A program made the position numbers and the translations under genes. 35,363 nt of DNA from assembly GCA_938048815.1 (NCBI GenBank), contig CALIUI010000114.1, forward strand, positions 1-35,363, read 5' to 3'. The DNA comes from an uncultured Aquificaceae bacterium (GTDB taxonomy: Bacteria > Aquificota > Aquificia > Aquificales > Aquificaceae). The notes beneath the pieces were generated by a model, which made no database searches, was not told where the DNA came from, and saw nothing but the letters and a program-made list of their open reading frames with translations. Of the stretch, positions 6,096 to 15,183 are shown piece by piece. Position 1 is the first letter of the stretch; every line of letters begins with the position of its first letter.

Positions 6096-6942
6096 CGCCT
6101 ATCCTCCAGTTGTCTATAAGCCTTGTATCCCCTACCCATACTGCAAGTAGTATTCTATCACCCTCCTTTACTTCCTTCACAGGCCTTAGATCCTCATCGG
6201 TTATCTCCACGTAATCAATCTTTTTCACATGGGGATGCTTCCTTATGAACTCTATAATAGTTTGTTTAATAGAGTTGGCATCTTTATTTCCACCTTTTAT
6301 AAGCTTTTCCGCCAACAAAAAGGACCTATATAAAGAGAGAGCCGATTCTCTTTCCTCTGGCTTTAAATAGGTGTTCCTTGAGCTAAAGGCAAGCCCATCC
6401 TTTTCCCTTACGGTTTTTACAGGAACTATCTCCACGGGAAGGCTTAAATCCTTTACCAATCTTTGTACCACCTTTAGCTGTTGATAGTCCTTTTCTCCAA
6501 AGTATGCCCTGTCGGGCTGTATTATGTTAAAAAGCTTAAGCACCACTGTGCAAACACCGCTAAAATGTCCCGGTCTAAACTCACCTTCCAATATATGGGT
6601 AAGGCCCTTTATCTCTATGTTTATCAGGGGCTTTTCTGGGTACATTTCCTCGTCAAGGGGAGCAAATACCACATTTACGCCCTCTTCCTCGCATATGCCC
6701 AAGTCCCTTTCCAAATCCCTTGGGTATCTTTCAAAGTCTTCTCCTTCGCCAAACTGGAGAGGGTTTACGTATATACTAACTATGGTTATATCGTTTTGAA
6801 TCTTTGAAGTTCTTATAAGTTCTCTGTGCCCCTCGTGTAGATAACCCATTGTGGGCACAAAGCCCACCGTATACCTATTCTCACACCTTAAGGACTTTAT
6901 GTAGTTCCTTATTTCCTTGGTTTTTTTAAAAAGGATTGGCAT
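6082..6942 (-). CDS. panC: Pantoate--beta-alanine ligase
   Basis: [26 protein letters not shown], internal start MPILFK preferred over the 6969 ORF start. Confidence 0.95.
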
Positions 6943-6960
6943 AGCTATATTATTATAGCA

Positions 6961-6993
6961 CTTAACCAAATCTTAACAATTATATGTTATGCT
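6961..6993 (+). promoter_or_regulatory. Pho-box-like promoter A: CTTAAC-N5-CTTAAC-N10-TATGCT, ATG at 7003
   Basis: CTTAAC at 6961 and 6972 (11-bp period); TATGCT at 6988-6993; same layout as at 11103-11119 and 15131-15169. Confidence 0.65.
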
Positions 6994-7002
6994 TTCTTTA
7001 AG

Positions 7003-7377
7003 ATGATTGAGTATGTGTCCTTGAGAGAAGATAGTGCGAGGTTATACTTTTCCAGTGTTGAAGAGAGAGACCTCTTTTTGCGTGGTATGGGTAGGATGGA
7101 GGGGGTTTTGGGAGTTGAATACAAGGAAAACACAAGGACTCTTTTGATAAGGTTCAAGGAGGGAAGCTTTATCCACTATCTTCTTGAAAACCTTAAAAAT
7201 AAAAAGCCCCCCAAGAGGATGGGAAAGGAAGACTTACATTTTTACCTTCAGCCTTTCTTGAAAAACCCCGCTGTTAAACTTGCCTTTAGCGTTGCTCTGC
7301 TTGGCTGGGGGGCAGGCTTGATCTCCTTTGGAGTTTGCAGTATGCTATTGCTTCCATACCTAAAAACAAAGCTTTAA
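7003..7377 (+). CDS. Small membrane protein with HMA-like fold lacking CxxC (HMA_2-like)
   Basis: GRMEGVLGVEYKENTRTLLIRFKEG resembles a beta-alpha-beta HMA core; C-terminal hydrophobic segment. Confidence 0.6.
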   Translation: MIEYVSLREDSARLYFSSVEERDLFLRGMGRMEGVLGVEYKENTRTLLIRFKEGSFIHYLLENLKNKKPPKRMGKEDLHFYLQPFLKNPAVKLAFSVALLGWGAGLISFGVCSMLLLPYLKTKL

Positions 7378-7389
7378 AGGAGGTAAGAG

Positions 7390-7704
7390 ATGGTAAATTT
7401 AAACCTTCCAAGCACCATAGGTGGATGTCTTTCCACAAATATGTTGCTCTATGGCTTTGGTACCCTTGCGGGGCTTGTGGTACTAAGCAAGCTTATGAGG
7501 GATGCCAGACCTTTTCTTGTGTCCACCACAAAGGAGGTTATAGCCTTCCAACAGTGGCTAACGGGCAACCTTGAGGAGGGAAAGGAGTTTTGGGAGGATG
7601 TAGTATCAGAGGCAAAGCACCTTTACAGGCTTGAAGTGGAAAAGAAATTAGAAGTATTACAAAAGCAGCAGGAGATCCTGCAAAGAATAAAGGAAAGACT
7701 GTGA
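7390..7704 (+). CDS. Small protein with N-terminal TM and C-terminal coiled coil (DUF5132-like)
   Basis: MLLYGFGTLAGLVVLSKLMRDARPF then EAKHLYRLEVEKKLEVLQKQQEILQRIKERL; SD AAAGGAGG upstream. Confidence 0.6.
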   Translation: MVNLNLPSTIGGCLSTNMLLYGFGTLAGLVVLSKLMRDARPFLVSTTKEVIAFQQWLTGNLEEGKEFWEDVVSEAKHLYRLEVEKKLEVLQKQQEILQRIKERL

Positions 7705-7716
7705 GGAGGTAGAAAG

Positions 7717-7923
7717 ATGAACCAAGTGAGCTCATTACTTAGCAGAGTTTTTTGCTCCGGTCCCTTTAGTTTTGCCTTGGGCTTTGGCTTGGGGGTCGTT
7801 GCCTTTTACATGCTTGACAGGGCAAAGGAAAAAAGAAGGCTTGAAGAGACTCAAAGGGAAATAGAAGCCATGATAAAAGCCCTTGAGTTGAAGCTACAAC
7901 AAGAAACCGAAAGCAAAACATGA
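7717..7923 (+). CDS. Small single-TM, coiled-coil protein
   Basis: PFSFALGFGLGVVAFYMLDRAKEKRRLEETQREIEAMIKALELKLQQE; SD GAGGAGG; ATGA overlap with the ATPase gene. Confidence 0.65.
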   Translation: MNQVSSLLSRVFCSGPFSFALGFGLGVVAFYMLDRAKEKRRLEETQREIEAMIKALELKLQQETESKT

Positions 7924-10007
7924 ACAGCTACAAGATAGAAAGGCTATCTCTCGGCAGGCTAAGGCTTAGCTCCTATCTTTTTAAGTATTTACACCATCCC
8001 GAGGAAAGCCTTCAGGGCTATTTTTTAAAGTTTGGTGGTGTAAAAAGGGTAAAGTACTCAAGAGCTTCCGGTAGGCTAACCCTTGAGTATGACCCTGAAA
8101 GCTTTGACCTTATAGAGTTTCTAAACCATCTGGAAAACACTCCCAGGGAGGTATTCCTTGAAGACCTCTCCAAGCACCCAATAAAGCCAAAAGATGAAAA
8201 AAAGGTGGCTTTTAGCTGGCTTGTCCTTACAAGCCTTGGCTTTTTCCCTTATCTTTTCAGAGGAATTTTTCCTAACCCTTTGCTTGCGGGTATGACCCTA
8301 TTATTGTCAAAGCCCGTTTTTGACAAGGCCATAAATTCTTTGAAGGAAAAAAGGCTTGATGTTCATTTCCTTGATTCCTCAGCCATCCTGCTGGCATCCC
8401 TTACGGGCAGTCCTCTGTCTGCCCACGTTATGAGCTTTCTCTTGGCTTTGGGCGATTACCTATCGGAGAAGATGGAAAAGAAAGCTTACGAGAAGATTGA
8501 AAGGCTCTTTTCTTACAAGGAGGATATGGCGTGGCTTGTGGTATCCGATGGCCAAGCCCTAAGGGTAAAGGCGGTGGATTTAAAGAAGGGACAGCTTATA
8601 GTGATCTATGCGGGCGAAAAGATACCCGCAGACGGAGTTGTAGAAGAGGGGGATGCCCTTGTAAACCAAGCTTCTCTGACGGGCGAATCCAACCCTGTTC
8701 ATAAGAAAGCGGGGGATAAAGTTTATGCAGGTACCTTTGTGGAAGACGGAAAGCTATACGTAAGGGTGGAGGAGGTGGGAGAGAATACGGTGGTGGCAAA
8801 GATAGCAAAGATAGTGGAGGAGAGTATAAAGGAGCCCATAAGCGTCCAAAGAATGGCAGAAGAGAGGGCAAACAAACTTGTCCTGCCTACCATAGGGCTT
8901 GGGCTTTCCTCTTTATTCTTAAGCGGTCAGATAAACAGGCTTACCTCCACCTTGATAATAGACTACCATACGGGCATACACCTTGCCACACCTTTAACAG
9001 TCTTATCAAGCGTAGCCCATGCCTCCACCTACGGCATTCTCATAAAGAGTGGTGGGAAGCTTGAAGCCCTGTCCCGTGTGGATACCTTTGTTATGGATAA
9101 AACGGGCACTCTAACGGTAGGAAGCCCATGTATAGAGGACTTAGTGGGCTTAGAAGTAAGCAAGGAAGAGGTGCTTCTGTACGCCGCCTCCTTGGAACAG
9201 AGGATCACCCACCCTGTAGCCAAGGCTATAGTGAAGCTTGCCCAAGAGAGAGGCTTGCCCCTTTTACTTAGAGAAGACTCCAAATATCACATAGGGCTGG
9301 GTATAGAGGGACAGATAGAGGGAGATACCTATATGCTTGGGAGCACACGCTTTATGCAAAAAAAGAGGATAAGGATAAGCCCAGAGATTAAGGAGATGGT
9401 GGATAGGTTCCACTCCGAGGCAAAGTCGGTGCTGTACCTTGTAAAGGGTAGAAAGATCATAGGACTGCTTACCTTTAGAGATCCTTTGAGGGAAGAGGCA
9501 AAGGATGTGATGAGGGAATTAAAGAGAAGGGGGAAAAGGGTTATTCTATGCACGGGTGATAACGAGGGTATAGCCAAATACATGGCAAGGGAGCTTGGCA
9601 TAGAGGATTACTACGCAAGGGTTTTCCCCGCGGAGAAGGCTAAGATAGTGGAGGAGTTAAAAAGTAAGGGTAGGATTGTTGCTTTTGTGGGCGATGGTAT
9701 AAACGATTCTCCAGCCCTTTCCTGTGCGGACGTGGGCATATCCCTAAGGAGTGGAACAGACATAGCCATAGAGGTTGCGGACGTGGTTATAGGCGATAGC
9801 CTTTGGCACCTCATAAACGTGGTGGATATGGCGGAGGGCACGGTGGAAAAGCTGAAAAGAATATATAACATAAACACTTGGGTAAACAGCATAGGCCTTT
9901 TGGGGTCTGTACTGGGAATTTTTGGGCCCTCTGTGTCCACCCTTATAAACAACGGCACCACAGTGCTTTTGGGATTATATTCAATAACAAAACCAAAAGG
10001 AGGTTAA
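7920..10007 (+). CDS. P-type ATPase of the heavy-metal-transporter type, non-CPx (DYHTGIHLATP in place of CPCALGLATP)
   Basis: DKTGTLT, TGES, THPVAKAI, GDGINDSPALS; N-terminal HMA-like region without CxxC. Confidence 0.92.
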   Translation: MNSYKIERLSLGRLRLSSYLFKYLHHPEESLQGYFLKFGGVKRVKYSRASGRLTLEYDPESFDLIEFLNHLENTPREVFLEDLSKHPIKPKDEKKVAFSWLVLTSLGFFPYLFRGIFPNPLLAGMTLLLSKPVFDKAINSLKEKRLDVHFLDSSAILLASLTGSPLSAHVMSFLLALGDYLSEKMEKKAYEKIERLFSYKEDMAWLVVSDGQALRVKAVDLKKGQLIVIYAGEKIPADGVVEEGDALVNQASLTGESNPVHKKAGDKVYAGTFVEDGKLYVRVEEVGENTVVAKIAKIVEESIKEPISVQRMAEERANKLVLPTIGLGLSSLFLSGQINRLTSTLIIDYHTGIHLATPLTVLSSVAHASTYGILIKSGGKLEALSRVDTFVMDKTGTLTVGSPCIEDLVGLEVSKEEVLLYAASLEQRITHPVAKAIVKLAQERGLPLLLREDSKYHIGLGIEGQIEGDTYMLGSTRFMQKKRIRISPEIKEMVDRFHSEAKSVLYLVKGRKIIGLLTFRDPLREEAKDVMRELKRRGKRVILCTGDNEGIAKYMARELGIEDYYARVFPAEKAKIVEELKSKGRIVAFVGDGINDSPALSCADVGISLRSGTDIAIEVADVVIGDSLWHLINVVDMAEGTVEKLKRIYNINTWVNSIGLLGSVLGIFGPSVSTLINNGTTVLLGLYSITKPKGG

Positions 10008-10012
10008 TAGCC

Positions 10013-10303
10013 ATGGAAGAAAAGAAGGACTTAGCCCAAGAGCTTGAAAGGATCAAAGCGGAGCTGGAGGAGCTCAAAAAGAAGATGGGTGTAGCAGAAG
10101 AAAAGGGGCTAAAGGATGTGCCCGCAGAAGCCCTTTCCAAGGTTATGGATATCAGCAAGGAGATAGTGAAAACGGCGGCAGAGATAGGAGAGAAGGCTAT
10201 AAAGGTGGTTAAGTTCTCGGTGGAGGGCGCTGTAGAAGGCGCCAAAAAGGCACTAAAGGAGGAAGAAGGAGCCAAAGGAGAGGAGAAGAAGGAAGAAGCA
10301 TGA
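10013..10303 (+). CDS. Helical, phasin/YtxH-like small protein
   Basis: SD AAAGGAGG then ATG at 10013 in frame with ORF 9878-10303; MEEKKDLAQELERIKAELEELKKKMG... Confidence 0.65.
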   Translation: MEEKKDLAQELERIKAELEELKKKMGVAEEKGLKDVPAEALSKVMDISKEIVKTAAEIGEKAIKVVKFSVEGAVEGAKKALKEEEGAKGEEKKEEA

Positions 10304-10557
10304 ACTTTTTAAGGACCAGGAGCGGTAGGTATCTCAACGCTTTGCACGTGATTTCCTTGTCTGTGGAAGAGGCAAAGATAGAGGTGGAAGGTAAAAAGAG
10401 GCTGGTTTATGAGGTGGTTGCCTACATGAGCCAGCCTCTCTTGCCCGCCGTCCTTGGTATCTACTCCACAGAAGAAAAGGCCTTTGAGGTGCTTGAAGAG
10501 ATAATAGAAAAGCTTTCCCAAGATGAGAGAGTTATACACATACAAAGCGAATATTGA
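10300..10557 (+). CDS. Conserved-looking small protein of unknown function
   Basis: 85 aa, ATGA overlap with preceding CDS, same strand and spacing as cluster. Confidence 0.6.
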   Translation: MNFLRTRSGRYLNALHVISLSVEEAKIEVEGKKRLVYEVVAYMSQPLLPAVLGIYSTEEKAFEVLEEIIEKLSQDERVIHIQSEY

Positions 10558-10876
10558 GGATTACCTTGGGGAGCTAAAACTTTTGGCTCACCACCTACAA
10601 GAAAGGCACAAGAAGGATTTAGAAAAACTTCAAGAGCCTGTGCTTTTAATGGTGGAGCTTCCCCAAAAGGTTTGGGCTTACTTTCTTATAGGATCCGAGG
10701 GCATAGTATATAAGGAAGATCCGCCACCCATAAAAAACAGGATATTGATATCCTACAAAGACCTCATAAGGCTTGTGGAAAAACCCTCCAAGGTGTTAAG
10801 GTACGTGTTTGAGGGTAGGGTGAAGTTGCAGGGTGATTATCAAAAGATATTGGAGTCTTTGCAAAAACTCCTTTAA
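10523..10876 (+). CDS. Small protein, possibly SCP2-like
   Basis: 117 aa; C-terminal VLRYVFEGRVKLQGDYQKILESLQKL resembles an SCP2-type ending (weak); 35-bp overlap with preceding CDS. Confidence 0.55.
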   Translation: MRELYTYKANIEDYLGELKLLAHHLQERHKKDLEKLQEPVLLMVELPQKVWAYFLIGSEGIVYKEDPPPIKNRILISYKDLIRLVEKPSKVLRYVFEGRVKLQGDYQKILESLQKLL

Positions 10877-11079
10877 AGGACCCTGCTTATAGCTTTTGTG
10901 ATTAGGTTTTCCAATATACCACCAACCACAAAGGACTCAATGAGTATGGTTCTATCCTTTTCCGTCAAAAAGGTATCCCTTTCACGCTTTCTTACCCTTT
11001 CACCCTTTTTCAAAAGCCTTTTGTAGCAATCCTTTTGTCTTTCAAGGTCTTCTATTAGGTTTTCTATTTTCTCCCTCAT
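10873..11079 (-). CDS. Small helical protein of unknown function
   Basis: 68 aa; ATG sits 7 nt after a TAAACT hexamer that follows CTTAAC direct repeats. Confidence 0.55.
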   Translation of the reverse strand: MREKIENLIEDLERQKDCYKRLLKKGERVRKRERDTFLTEKDRTILIESFVVGGILENLITKAISRVL

Positions 11080-11086
11080 GGGATTT

Positions 11087-11119
11087 AGTTTAAGGGAAGT
11101 TTGTTAAGATTTTGTTAAG
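11087..11119 (-). promoter_or_regulatory. Pho-box-like promoter B: CTTAAC-N5-CTTAAC-N10-TAAACT, ATG at 11079
   Basis: On the minus strand CTTAAC at 11114-11119 and 11103-11108; hexamer 11087-11092. Confidence 0.6.
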
Positions 11120-12216
11120 AGTCGTCCCGAATACACACCCATCAGCCTTTCAAAGGTGGATGTCCAAGAGAAGTTGTTTATTATGTAGGAGCTTATGGCT
11201 TCCTTGAGAGACAAGCTCAAGGTATTGGAAGCCCTAATTATGGCGTTATATAGTTCTTCTTGGTTCATCTCCCTAACCAAGAATTCTTTGAAGGGCTGTG
11301 TTTCCAAGCCCATATCAAAGGCCACCAAAATACAACCACAAGCTTGAGCCTCAAGGAAGGAAAGTCCGTAGGTCTCCCTAAGGGAGGCACTCACATAAAT
11401 ATCACAGCTTGCATAGAGTTCTGCAAGCTCTTCCTCCTTGTGAATGTAGCCCAAATAGGTTAAATTGGGAAGTTTTTTGGAGATGCCTTCCACCTTTCTT
11501 TTTAAAGGACCATCCCCCGCTATAACAAGGTGGAAAAGGAAAGGGTCAAGGTGTTGAAAAACTTCAAGGAGAAGGCTTAGGTTTTTTTCTATGGATAGCC
11601 TACCCACATATAGAAGTTTGTACTTGTTCTCTCTTATACCAAGGATCCTGTTAAAGTAGGGGTTTTTTTTGGAAGGGTTAAAGGTTTGCGTATCTACTCC
11701 TAAGTTTATAGTTAGGACACTTTCAAGCCCAAAGCCCTTTAAAAACTCCTCTTGCTTTTTGGAGGGTGTTAAGATAATGTCTGCCTTTGAAAGCTTTTTT
11801 CTTATGGTGTGTTCCAAAAGGAAGTTTTTTAACCTTTGGGGACCGGGGATTAAAAAAAGGTCTGCCTTTATATCGGAGTGGTAAAAAACGCTTAAAAGGT
11901 ATTTGTGGGATTTCAAATAGGGTATTATCTGGTAGCTTCCGCCCACTTCCACTATATCTGGGGATTCCCTTTGAAGTATCTCCTTTATCTCTGCAAGGGA
12001 GGAAAAGAACCTATACCCGCCCGTAAGGGGCAAGGGAAAGGAGGGAAGTTCATAAACCTTGGTGGCTTCTAAATAGTAGCTTTTTCTTTCCTTTCCCGGT
12101 ATTATAAGAAGGTGTTCTATATCCTTGTCCCTGAAGTATTTTATCTTCTCCAAAAGGTATCTTTTTATGCCACCGCTCTTGCTGTGGAAATAGGGCGTTA
12201 TATCAACCAACTTCAT
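11104..12216 (-). CDS. Glycosyltransferase, GT4-like
   Basis: LLYVGRLSIEKNLSLLLEVF, VIAGDGPLKRKVE, SASLRETYGLSFLEAQACG; start MKLVDITPYF preferred. Confidence 0.88.
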   Translation of the reverse strand: MKLVDITPYFHSKSGGIKRYLLEKIKYFRDKDIEHLLIIPGKERKSYYLEATKVYELPSFPLPLTGGYRFFSSLAEIKEILQRESPDIVEVGGSYQIIPYLKSHKYLLSVFYHSDIKADLFLIPGPQRLKNFLLEHTIRKKLSKADIILTPSKKQEEFLKGFGLESVLTINLGVDTQTFNPSKKNPYFNRILGIRENKYKLLYVGRLSIEKNLSLLLEVFQHLDPFLFHLVIAGDGPLKRKVEGISKKLPNLTYLGYIHKEEELAELYASCDIYVSASLRETYGLSFLEAQACGCILVAFDMGLETQPFKEFLVREMNQEELYNAIIRASNTLSLSLKEAISSYIINNFSWTSTFERLMGVYSGRLLTKS

Positions 12217-14434
12217 ATACCAGCCTCCCAAGCCCTGCTATCGCCAGCATATAATCTATGTAGCTCTTTCTCATATCAAGGGACTTTGCCTTATAAAGGG
12301 CTTCCTGCGACATGGCTTTGCGCAAATCCTCTCTTGAAAGTAAAAGGGAGAGTTTTTCCACAAATTCCTCCTGCCTTGTGGCTATAAAGCCGTTTATACC
12401 CTCATCCACATGCTCATGGGCTGCACCCTTTGAGCTTACTATAACAGGAAGGCCGCTTGCCATAGCCTCAAGGACTACCTGCCCGTAGGTTTCCGTCGTA
12501 GAAGGAAAGAGAAAAACATCACTGCTGGCGTATGCCTTGGCAAGCTCCTCTCCCAACATATAACCCACCAAGTGCACATTTTTGGGCTTTTTCCTTTCTA
12601 TCTCCTGTCTGTAGGGTCCATCGCCCACTATTACAAAGATGTCCTCCGGGAAACATTTGGCGACGTACAAGAAGGTATCCAAGCCCTTCTCCTTTGAAAC
12701 TCTTCCCACGTAGAGTATAACCCTTTGGTGTTTCTTTTTGTGCCAAAAATCCTCTTGCCTTTTGTTGGGCGAGAAGAGTTCCGTATCCACTCCCCTTTTG
12801 AAAACCCCTATTTTTCCATAGCTTAAGCCCTTGCCTGTAAAGACCTTTCTGTAGTGTTCCGAGGGTACAAAGAACCTATCAGACCAATTACCAAGTAGTA
12901 CAAAGAACCTCCAAAGGATCTCCTCTATGTCTGGGTCTCCCGTGTAGGTCTTTGCATAGGTGGGTATATCCGTATGAAAGGCAAAGGTTGTTCTAAGACC
13001 TAAAAGCTTGCCCGCAAGGAAACCCAAAAGCCCCAAGGGTCCGGGTGTGGCTATATGCACTTGCGAAAAGCCTTCCCTTTCCAAAAGGTCTAACAGCTCT
13101 AAAAAGTTTGGAACTCCCATCCTTAGCTCTTCATAAAAGGGTGTGGGAATCTCCCAAAGGGGTTTTAGGTTTATAAGCCCTTCCTCCTCTCTTATTGATG
13201 CGTTGCACGTTATAAGGGTAAAGGGCAGTCCTTCCTCCAAAGCTATCTGTCTTATAAGTTTAGCGCTTCTGGCAACGCCGTTTATATGGTGGTAGGTGTC
13301 GGTAATATAGGCTACCTTTATGGCTTTTCCGTTGGTGATGCCAAAGTCCTTGCTTAGCTCTTTTATCTTTTTCGCCTCTCTCTTTTGGGCGTACTTTAAA
13401 AAGGCAGGGAAGCCATGAGCCATGAGGGACAGGCACAGCTCCCCAAAGGTTTGCGGTGAGGGACTTTTCAAAAGCCTTTCTATGGCTATAGAAGGCAAAA
13501 GCTTTGCTATCTCTTTGATTAGCCTGTACCTCTCTCCCTTTATGTTTAAAAAATTCCTTAGCATAAAGGCCACCATGGGATTGTCCGAATGCATAAAGAT
13601 GTAATCCGTTATGGGCTTTATATCGGAGGGTATGTAGTTCTTGTTTTTTACAAAGTCGTAGCCCACCCTGCAAATCATGTTTAAAAGCCTTTCTTCTCCA
13701 AGTTCTTCTGTTCCCACCTGCGTTCTGCCCTCCAAAAGGCCCCTTAGGAAGTCCTCCTTTGTAAAGGCTTCTTCTACAATTGTCCAAGTCCTACCTACGT
13801 CCATACCTCCATGATCGTCAGACCCTGCGGTAAAGCTTATCCTTTCCCTTGTCCTCTGGGGTTCTATCTTGTACTTTTCCGCCAAAAGGTATATCTTGTC
13901 CCATCCGTTGTAAATCCTTGCTATGGATTCCTCTATGTACCTCACACCATCTCCCCTTGTGCCGTTTATAACCTCCCAATTGTCAAAGAGAAGTACCAAC
14001 TTTTCTACAAAACTTTTATCTACGTTGCTTCTTTCCACGGAATACAGGGGATGGGCAAGGGAATGGGCTATCCTGTTGGCTTTTAAGTATCTTACAAAGT
14101 GGTATATGTTCTCCCTCAGTTTTATTAGCTCTTGATGGTCTTTTTCTGTAATACCATAGACAAGTACATGTACTTTTCCTCCCTCGGGGAAGGCTACCGT
14201 GTACTCACAGCTTATAAAGACCTCTGGAAAGTGAGCTATCTCAAGAACACCCTCTATGGTATTGTGGTCGGTGATGGTTATGCAGGTCATGCCCCTCTCT
14301 TTCAGTCTTTTGTATATCTCCATAGGCTCTGTGTAGCTTTCGGGACATCCTATAAGCCTACTAAACCATCCACCCGGCAGGTTGGAGGCTTTGGAATGAA
14401 GATGAAGGTCTGCCTTTGCTAAAAAGTTCTTCAT
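12203..14434 (-). CDS. Fusion of PHP-type phosphoesterase domain and GT4-like glycosyltransferase
   Basis: N-terminal ADLHLHSKAS, TITDHNTIEG, GSDDHGG; C-terminal VLYVGRVSKEKGLDTF, FPSTTETYGQVVLEAMASGLPVI. Confidence 0.88.
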   Translation of the reverse strand: MKNFLAKADLHLHSKASNLPGGWFSRLIGCPESYTEPMEIYKRLKERGMTCITITDHNTIEGVLEIAHFPEVFISCEYTVAFPEGGKVHVLVYGITEKDHQELIKLRENIYHFVRYLKANRIAHSLAHPLYSVERSNVDKSFVEKLVLLFDNWEVINGTRGDGVRYIEESIARIYNGWDKIYLLAEKYKIEPQRTRERISFTAGSDDHGGMDVGRTWTIVEEAFTKEDFLRGLLEGRTQVGTEELGEERLLNMICRVGYDFVKNKNYIPSDIKPITDYIFMHSDNPMVAFMLRNFLNIKGERYRLIKEIAKLLPSIAIERLLKSPSPQTFGELCLSLMAHGFPAFLKYAQKREAKKIKELSKDFGITNGKAIKVAYITDTYHHINGVARSAKLIRQIALEEGLPFTLITCNASIREEEGLINLKPLWEIPTPFYEELRMGVPNFLELLDLLEREGFSQVHIATPGPLGLLGFLAGKLLGLRTTFAFHTDIPTYAKTYTGDPDIEEILWRFFVLLGNWSDRFFVPSEHYRKVFTGKGLSYGKIGVFKRGVDTELFSPNKRQEDFWHKKKHQRVILYVGRVSKEKGLDTFLYVAKCFPEDIFVIVGDGPYRQEIERKKPKNVHLVGYMLGEELAKAYASSDVFLFPSTTETYGQVVLEAMASGLPVIVSSKGAAHEHVDEGINGFIATRQEEFVEKLSLLLSREDLRKAMSQEALYKAKSLDMRKSYIDYMLAIAGLGRLVYEVG

Positions 14435-15107
14435 AGCTTATCCACCTCCTTGTTTCTTTTACCCTTTGGAGTATCTCCCTCCAAAGGTTTATCTTTCTTT
14501 CGTCCCTAAAATCCTTCATATGAAGGGCAAGCCTAAGGATTTTTTGCCTTTTATAAAGCCTTTCAAACTCTGGCACCATCCTAAGGCTAAGCCAAGAGAA
14601 CAAAAATCTATTGCTAAAGCTCAAAGCTGGAGTTTTTACATAGCTTCCCCTCTGTAGGTCCTTTATGTACCATCTGTAGGCTATACCTTTGAAGTTAAAG
14701 GAATAGAGCACATCCTCAAGGTAGAGATTGCCTATCCACGCTGGAGGAACAAAAAACTCAGAGCTTAAGCCCGCATATTCCATAAGCTCCAAGGCAGAGG
14801 AGATCTTTTGATAGGTGTTGTAAAGGTCAAGCCCACCAAACTCACCCTCTCCATCGGTCCATAAAAACTCTTGAAGTCTTTTGGCACCTTTGTGGGTATA
14901 TCCGTGTAAGACTATTTCCCCAGGAAGGTTTTTTATAAGGTGGAGCAATTCCTTATCCTCTAAAAGGGAATACTTCTCCCAAAAATAAGGAACCACCAAG
15001 AGGGAAAGCTTATATATATCCAGGTCCTCCAAAAGCCCAAGGGCCTTTAAAAACTCCCTCCTGTAGTAGGGGCTAAGGTCATGAAGTTCCAAAAGGGCAT
15101 ACTGCAT
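14361..15107 (-). CDS. DUF2334 / polysaccharide-deacetylase-like protein
   Basis: ALLELHDLSPYY, EIVLHGYTHKG; 74-bp overlap with downstream PHP-GT gene. Confidence 0.75.
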   Translation of the reverse strand: MQYALLELHDLSPYYRREFLKALGLLEDLDIYKLSLLVVPYFWEKYSLLEDKELLHLIKNLPGEIVLHGYTHKGAKRLQEFLWTDGEGEFGGLDLYNTYQKISSALELMEYAGLSSEFFVPPAWIGNLYLEDVLYSFNFKGIAYRWYIKDLQRGSYVKTPALSFSNRFLFSWLSLRMVPEFERLYKRQKILRLALHMKDFRDERKINLWREILQRVKETRRWISYEELFSKGRPSSSFQSLQPAGWMV

Positions 15108-15114
15108 AGGTATA

Positions 15115-15169
15115 AGAATAGGGGATTAAAGTTAAGATTTTTTTAAGTTTTGGTTAAGATTTAGTTAAG
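15115..15169 (-). promoter_or_regulatory. Pho-box-like promoter C: four 11-bp-phased repeats CTTAAC/CTTAAA then N10-TATTCT, ATG at 15107
   Basis: Plus-strand GTTAAG/TTTAAG/GTTAAG/GTTAAG starting at 15131, 15142, 15153, 15164; TATTCT on minus strand at 15115-15120. Confidence 0.7.
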
Positions 15170-15183
15170 GGGGCAATGCCCCC
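15169..15183 (-). terminator. GGGGGC-AAT-GCCCCC hairpin at the 3' end of thiC
   Basis: 6-bp perfect stem, downstream of thiC stop on the minus strand and abutting the repeat array. Confidence 0.5.

Follow-up and report, generated by a model that had tools for sequence, protein, structure and literature searches.

Is the island between panC and thiC of an uncultured hot-spring Aquificaceae bacterium controlled by one regulator, and what would its genes do together? The window, by which we mean the whole stretch of DNA that was analysed (35,363 nt, contig CALIUI010000114.1), holds three promoters in this 8.2-kb interval that carry CTTAAC direct repeats. We consider it quite probable that these are PHO-box sites of a PhoB-type regulon, and that one of the units, a DUF2334/PHP-GT4/GT4 operon, makes an amino-sugar lipid under phosphate limitation. 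The case is built on features read from sequence: the operators, their promoter geometry, their co-occurrence with phosphate genes, their conservation, and the enzyme families of the operon. The promoter elements are as follows.

6961..6977, plus strand: PHO box 1, CTTAAC-N5-CTTAAC, predicted driver of the orf124 / P-type ATPase operon
6988..6993, plus strand: -10 hexamer TATGCT, 10 bp past the last repeat of box 1
11103..11119, minus strand: PHO box 2, CTTAAC repeat pair, predicted operator of orf68
11087..11092, minus strand: -10 hexamer TAAACT of orf68, 10 bp past box 2
15131..15169, minus strand: PHO box 3, four tandem units with an 11-bp period, before the predicted lipid operon
15115..15120, minus strand: -10 hexamer TATTCT of the predicted lipid operon, 10 bp past box 3

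A first-pass annotation had proposed three sites with direct repeats in 11-bp phase, each followed by a 10-bp gap, a hexamer, and an ATG 9, 7, and 7 nt later, and direct reading confirmed every one of these positions and distances. Site 1 has units at 6961-6966 and 6972-6977 and its ATG at 7003; site 2, on the minus strand, has units at 11119-11114 and 11108-11103, and the orf68 ATG lies at 11079. The same annotation called the operators identical. This holds for sites 1 and 2, in which all units are CTTAAC, but not for site 3, whose units read CTTAAC, CTTAAC, CTTAAA, and CTTAAC on the minus strand from 15169 to 15131, with the ATG at 15107.

The repeats are short, and this is the one point found in favor of their being chance or repeat-derived similarity. 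We searched the genome (1,594,706 bases in 133 contigs) for the exact 17-mer CTTAAC-N5-CTTAAC and found seven copies, three in the window and four elsewhere, so the motif is not frequent genome-wide (seven exact sites in 1.59 Mb). A first-order Markov model trained on the window sequence predicts 0.45 copies per genome and 0.0095 when TAnnnT is required at +10; for 8.2 kb it predicts 0.002, against the three exact sites present. When the spacer was varied from 0 to 25 bases, seven pairs occurred at N5 and four chance pairs over all other 25 spacings, with one further N16 pair internal to the site-3 array. The excess at N5 has a Poisson P of ~5e-10, and the 11-bp period is specific. Across 14 genomes of the genus there were 97 exact sites, against one for the reversed pattern. 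With the operators also conserved across the genus between diverged flanks, the spacing, reversed-pattern, Markov, and conservation controls refute a chance origin, to which we give almost no credence. Weaker sites in the same genome, on contigs C40, C56, C79, C90, C107, and C108, were rejected as regulon members, and CTTAACACCTCCTTAAC, found once in most genomes of the genus, was discounted as probably lying in coding sequence.

The genus genomes each contain 4 to 13 exact sites, and the orthologous islands of relatives carry the motif as well; its absence there would have counted against the first-pass proposal. A four-unit array, with some units degenerate, lies upstream of DUF2334 in all 14. 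Conservation in the promoters of DUF2334, orf124, and orf68 is 99-100% at the box columns and averages 67-75% at the others; for orf124 the box columns reach 100% in nine sequences. TAnnnT stands exactly 10 bp past the last unit in 50 of 54 distinct operator contexts, and other offsets average 1.6; as the contexts are mutually related, a binomial estimate makes this look more certain than it is. The genus operators precede the same set of genes, namely pstS, phoX, phoU, DUF302, DUF2334, orf68, and orf124, and pstS itself lies inside the same island in several relatives. Single genomes add a phosphonate-binding protein and a Porin_O_P protein as targets. In most other families of the phylum the exact motif is much rarer.

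The four sites outside the window lie upstream of pstS, phoX, phoU, and a DUF302 gene, in agreement with the expectation that a genome scan would find the motif at pst and phoU; phoX carries it too. After pstS come two genes that resemble permeases and one for an ABC ATPase (pstC, pstA, and pstB), and at phoX, too, the units form a tandem array. The phoU gene overlaps a histidine-kinase gene 3' of it, to which the phoR model matches weakly. Because the same operator stands before pstS, phoX, phoU-histidine kinase, and the DUF302 gene, the three window sites are best read as PHO boxes of a PhoB-type regulator. The pst, phoU, and phoX operators thus support the proposal that the island belongs to a phosphate-starvation regulon. 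The island does not bound that regulon, however, since four of the seven operators lie elsewhere.

Four OmpR-type DNA-binding domains are encoded in the genome, and the targets include a P1B ATPase operon, so another OmpR-family regulator, for example a metal-responsive one, might act on the island through a look-alike operator. We regard this as very improbable, as the same operator with the same hexamer at +10 is found upstream of pstS, phoX, and phoU here and in relatives. The best candidate for the PhoB-type regulator is a full-length protein encoded on contig 64 (C64), whose best-fitting models are those for PhoB (237.6 and 229.8 bits, the latter for TIGR02154). The phoB-like gene in L037 is followed by a YaeI-like phosphodiesterase gene. 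L035 and L036 each carry an OmpR-family C-terminus at a contig end, and the two are nearly identical; a sensor kinase follows one of them, and the other lies on a contig with a transposase-like open reading frame (ORF).

In E. coli the PHO box is located 10 bp upstream of the -10 hexamer. PHO boxes consist of two 11-nt direct repeat units that are bound head to tail, and their cores are species-specific (PMC4415409). The sites described here resemble those of E. coli PhoB and other PhoB/PhoP systems in their tandem 11-nt direct repeats, in the 10 bp to the -10, and in their pst, phoU, and phosphatase targets. They differ from the E. coli box in the core, which is CTTAAC rather than CTGTCAT, and from PhoB/PhoP systems in that the C64 regulator gene is not adjacent to a recognised phoR and that the targets include a P-type ATPase operon and a lipid operon with a PHP-GT fusion. 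By this likeness, a phosphorylated PhoB-type regulator would bind the repeats head to tail, 10 bp ahead of the -10 hexamer, and stand in for the -35 element. In phosphate-starved cells it would switch on PstSCAB, PhoX, and PhoU-histidine kinase at other loci together with the three island units. Both the binding of PhoB and the response of the boxes to phosphate are what we infer from these parallels. A literature search on the Pho operator and promoter geometry of this lineage found no study, and the sites offer a concrete example of both for a deep-branching thermophilic lineage.

The distance from the -10 to the start codon divides the targets. Across the genus, the start codons of orf124, orf68, and DUF2334 come 6-9 nt past the -10 and are not preceded by a Shine-Dalgarno motif (24 of 24 promoters); those of pstS, phoX, phoU, and DUF302 come 19-32 nt past it and are preceded by one (15 of 15). 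Start codons only 6-9 nt past the -10 imply leaderless mRNAs. We rejected leaderless promoters as a trait specific to the island, because many other window genes also carry TAnnnT 6-10 nt before the ATG without a Shine-Dalgarno motif, as if leaderless transcripts were common.

Of the three island units, the DUF2334/PHP-GT4/GT4 operon is understood best. Its probable product was judged from its three genes, which lie on the minus strand and overlap end to end.

14361..15107, minus strand: DUF2334 deacetylase (CE4-type model), gene 1 of the predicted lipid operon
12203..14434, minus strand: PHP-GT, a PHP metallohydrolase domain (residues ~1-250) fused to a GT4 glycosyltransferase (~370-743)
11104..12231, minus strand: GT4 glycosyltransferase, distant relative of the N-acetylglucosaminyl phosphatidylglycerol (GlcNAc-PG) synthase GpgS

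Among NCBIfam models, DUF2334 matched distantly the GlcNAc-PG deacetylase GpgD (80.6 bits, cut-off 280), and GT4 the glucosaminyl phosphatidylglycerol (GlcN-PG) synthase GpgS (187.4 bits, cut-off 480). PHP-GT matched glycolipid synthases (diacylglycerol glycosyltransferase models) and the PHP metallohydrolase domain, below the cut-offs. No convincing match to DUF2334 was found among PDB sequences, and its fold was therefore modelled. The model (predicted local distance difference test score, pLDDT, 86.9) matched CE4 deacetylases including ArnD, a lipid-sugar deacetylase. Residues H9-D10, H68, and H72 are invariant, and the model agrees with a NodB/CE4 fold in which D10, H68, and H72 are the metal-binding D-H-H residues. 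In the PHP domain, H11, H13, D56, H57, E77, H89, H128, D206, D207, and H208 are invariant in 13 sequences, as expected of the predicted metal ligands. The fold search with PHP-GT gave GT domains alone among the matches listed, and residues at about 12-31 of the PHP region were poorly modelled; the PHP domain is therefore assigned from profiles and invariant residues.

DUF2334 occurs in 45 of 136 genomes, and full-length PHP-GT in many Aquificota genera. In more distant Aquificota the operon adjoins phoX (L150), phoU and orf68 (L148), or the ATPase-orf85-SCP2-orf68 group (L146). Directly upstream of it are genes resembling olsB and olsA in L148 and L150 and, in L144, one resembling olsA. These neighbors tie the operon to phosphate and membrane lipids independently of the operator.

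By analogy with known systems, an amino-sugar lipid is the probable joint product of PHP-GT, GT4, and DUF2334. The GT4 domains would glycosylate a lipid acceptor and DUF2334 would deacetylate N-acetylglucosamine (GlcNAc) to glucosamine (GlcN), with the PHP domain as a possible source of free diacylglycerol or phosphate. In marine bacteria, Agrobacterium, and P. aeruginosa, PlcP and Agt, which are often preceded by Pho boxes, replace phospholipids with glycolipids (PMC4796936). The operon shares with PlcP-Agt a Pho-boxed hydrolase and glycosyltransferase, with membrane lipids as the predicted target. It contains no gene for a metallophosphoesterase of the PlcP type; the role of PlcP as hydrolase would fall to the PHP domain in the GT4 fusion, and the operon further encodes a deacetylase and another GT4. 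The fusion may be a one-protein analogue of PlcP-Agt, and the lipids made by this set of enzymes may spare phosphorus. The PHP domain may supply diacylglycerol, and the lipid may be free of phosphate. A fuller version, an Aquificota-specific cassette for lipid renovation under PhoB-type control, in which PHP-GT4 hydrolyses phospholipid and glycosylates the released diacylglycerol and GT4 and DUF2334 add and deacetylate GlcNAc to give a phosphate-free cationic glycolipid, is a tentative proposal, plausible but clearly short of even chances.

A different product would follow from the nearest named models, which for GT4 and DUF2334 are a GlcN-PG synthase and a GlcNAc-PG deacetylase. GpgS and GpgD of Pseudomonas aeruginosa make GlcN-PG (PMC12713373), and like GpgSDF the operon combines a GT4 with a COG3233-type deacetylase, with an amino-sugar lipid as the predicted product. 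The island could thus belong to the Pho regulon and its operon yield a lipid that contains phosphate and is modified in charge, for example GlcN-PG; its effect would then be on the charge of the membrane and not on the saving of phosphorus. Several observations make this rather doubtful. The scores are far below both equivalog cut-offs, no GpgF was recognised, and the operon has an additional PHP-GT and Pho boxes, in which it differs from GpgSDF. The PHP hydrolase domain and the olsA/olsB-like neighbors in relatives point to phosphate-free lipids, and a lipid with its phosphate retained would be an odd target of Pho control.

HexSDF of Clostridioides difficile gives an aminohexosyl glycolipid without phosphate (PMC10128005), and it resembles the operon in pairing a glycosyltransferase with a deacetylase, a likeness taken from the described functions. 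It differs in being regulated by HexRK, in having HexS annotated as a monogalactosyldiacylglycerol (MGDG) synthase, and in that no PHP domain is reported. Desulfovibrio alaskensis has glycolipids and ornithine lipids under phosphate limitation. Ornithine lipid synthesis by OlsBA comes close to the operon through the olsB/olsA-like neighbors in other Aquificota; unlike that setting, genes for an OlsB-type acyltransferase (PF13444) were not found in the genus of the window at the sensitivity used.

Polysaccharide synthesis commonly involves GT4 enzymes and CE4 deacetylases, and many exopolysaccharide glycosyltransferase models match weakly. The operon might accordingly be Pho-controlled and modify a surface polysaccharide or lipopolysaccharide rather than a membrane glycerolipid. 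This is unlikely, as the operon has no polymerase, flippase, or export genes, the best glycosyltransferase matches are lipid glycosyltransferases, and lipid genes adjoin the operon in relatives.

Against a PhoB-type regulon with an amino-sugar lipid operon stand several points. The scores of the C64 regulator are below the PhoB cut-offs (270 and 296.2; 229.8 against 296.2 for the TIGR02154 equivalog), so the PhoB-like regulator postulated in the first-pass annotation has a best-fitting candidate that does not reach the threshold of its class. DUF2334 and GT4 fall so far below the GpgD and GpgS cut-offs that these matches do not fix the lipid product; GlcN-PG itself, with its phosphate, would not spare phosphate. 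No obvious flippase of the GpgF/HexF type was recognised in the operon, and no part in the response to phosphate starvation is established for the P-type ATPase, the SCP2 protein, or orf68. The lipid product and the PHP substrate are accordingly put forward as predictions. If they hold, the operon represents a phosphate-controlled membrane-lipid pathway with hydrolase and glycosyltransferase in one protein, which could bear on the glycolipids in hot-spring biomass.

The other two units of the island comprise the following genes.

7003..7377, plus strand: orf124, gene 1 of the ATPase operon, no confident family
7390..7704, plus strand: orf104, small protein without family assignment
7717..7923, plus strand: small hydrophobic/charged ORF of 68 aa, overlapping the ATPase start, reading frame seen directly
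7920..10007, plus strand: P1B-type (heavy-metal) P-type ATPase
10300..10557, plus strand: orf85, kept in the islands of relatives
10523..10876, plus strand: SCP2-domain (sterol-carrier-like) protein, last in the ATPase operon
10873..11079, minus strand: orf68, 68-aa protein, conserved, under a separate PHO-box promoter

The P1B-type ATPase lacks a CPx motif and has IIDYHTGIH instead, which is kept, or closely varied, in relatives. In L146 a CDF-like exporter, recognised by eye, lies beside the ATPase, which hints at metal export. Box 2 shares bases with the coding end of GT4 (L-T-K-S-stop), whose stop codon falls within the second repeat. A further PHO-boxed gene, encoding a protein of ~150-170 aa that matched neither Pfam nor NCBIfam, occurs at L051:8032-8538 (minus strand) and at homologous positions in L054, L059, and L062. 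Box 3 is abutted by one more element.

15169..15183, minus strand: perfect hairpin GGGGGC-ATT-GCCCCC after thiC

Stems that differ in sequence at the same position in relatives suggest a conserved thiC terminator or insulator, and the hairpin is probably one or the other. At 6941-6977 of the window, box 1 lies between orf124 and the divergent panC, beside a TATAAT on the panC strand, and PhoB binding might therefore also affect panC.

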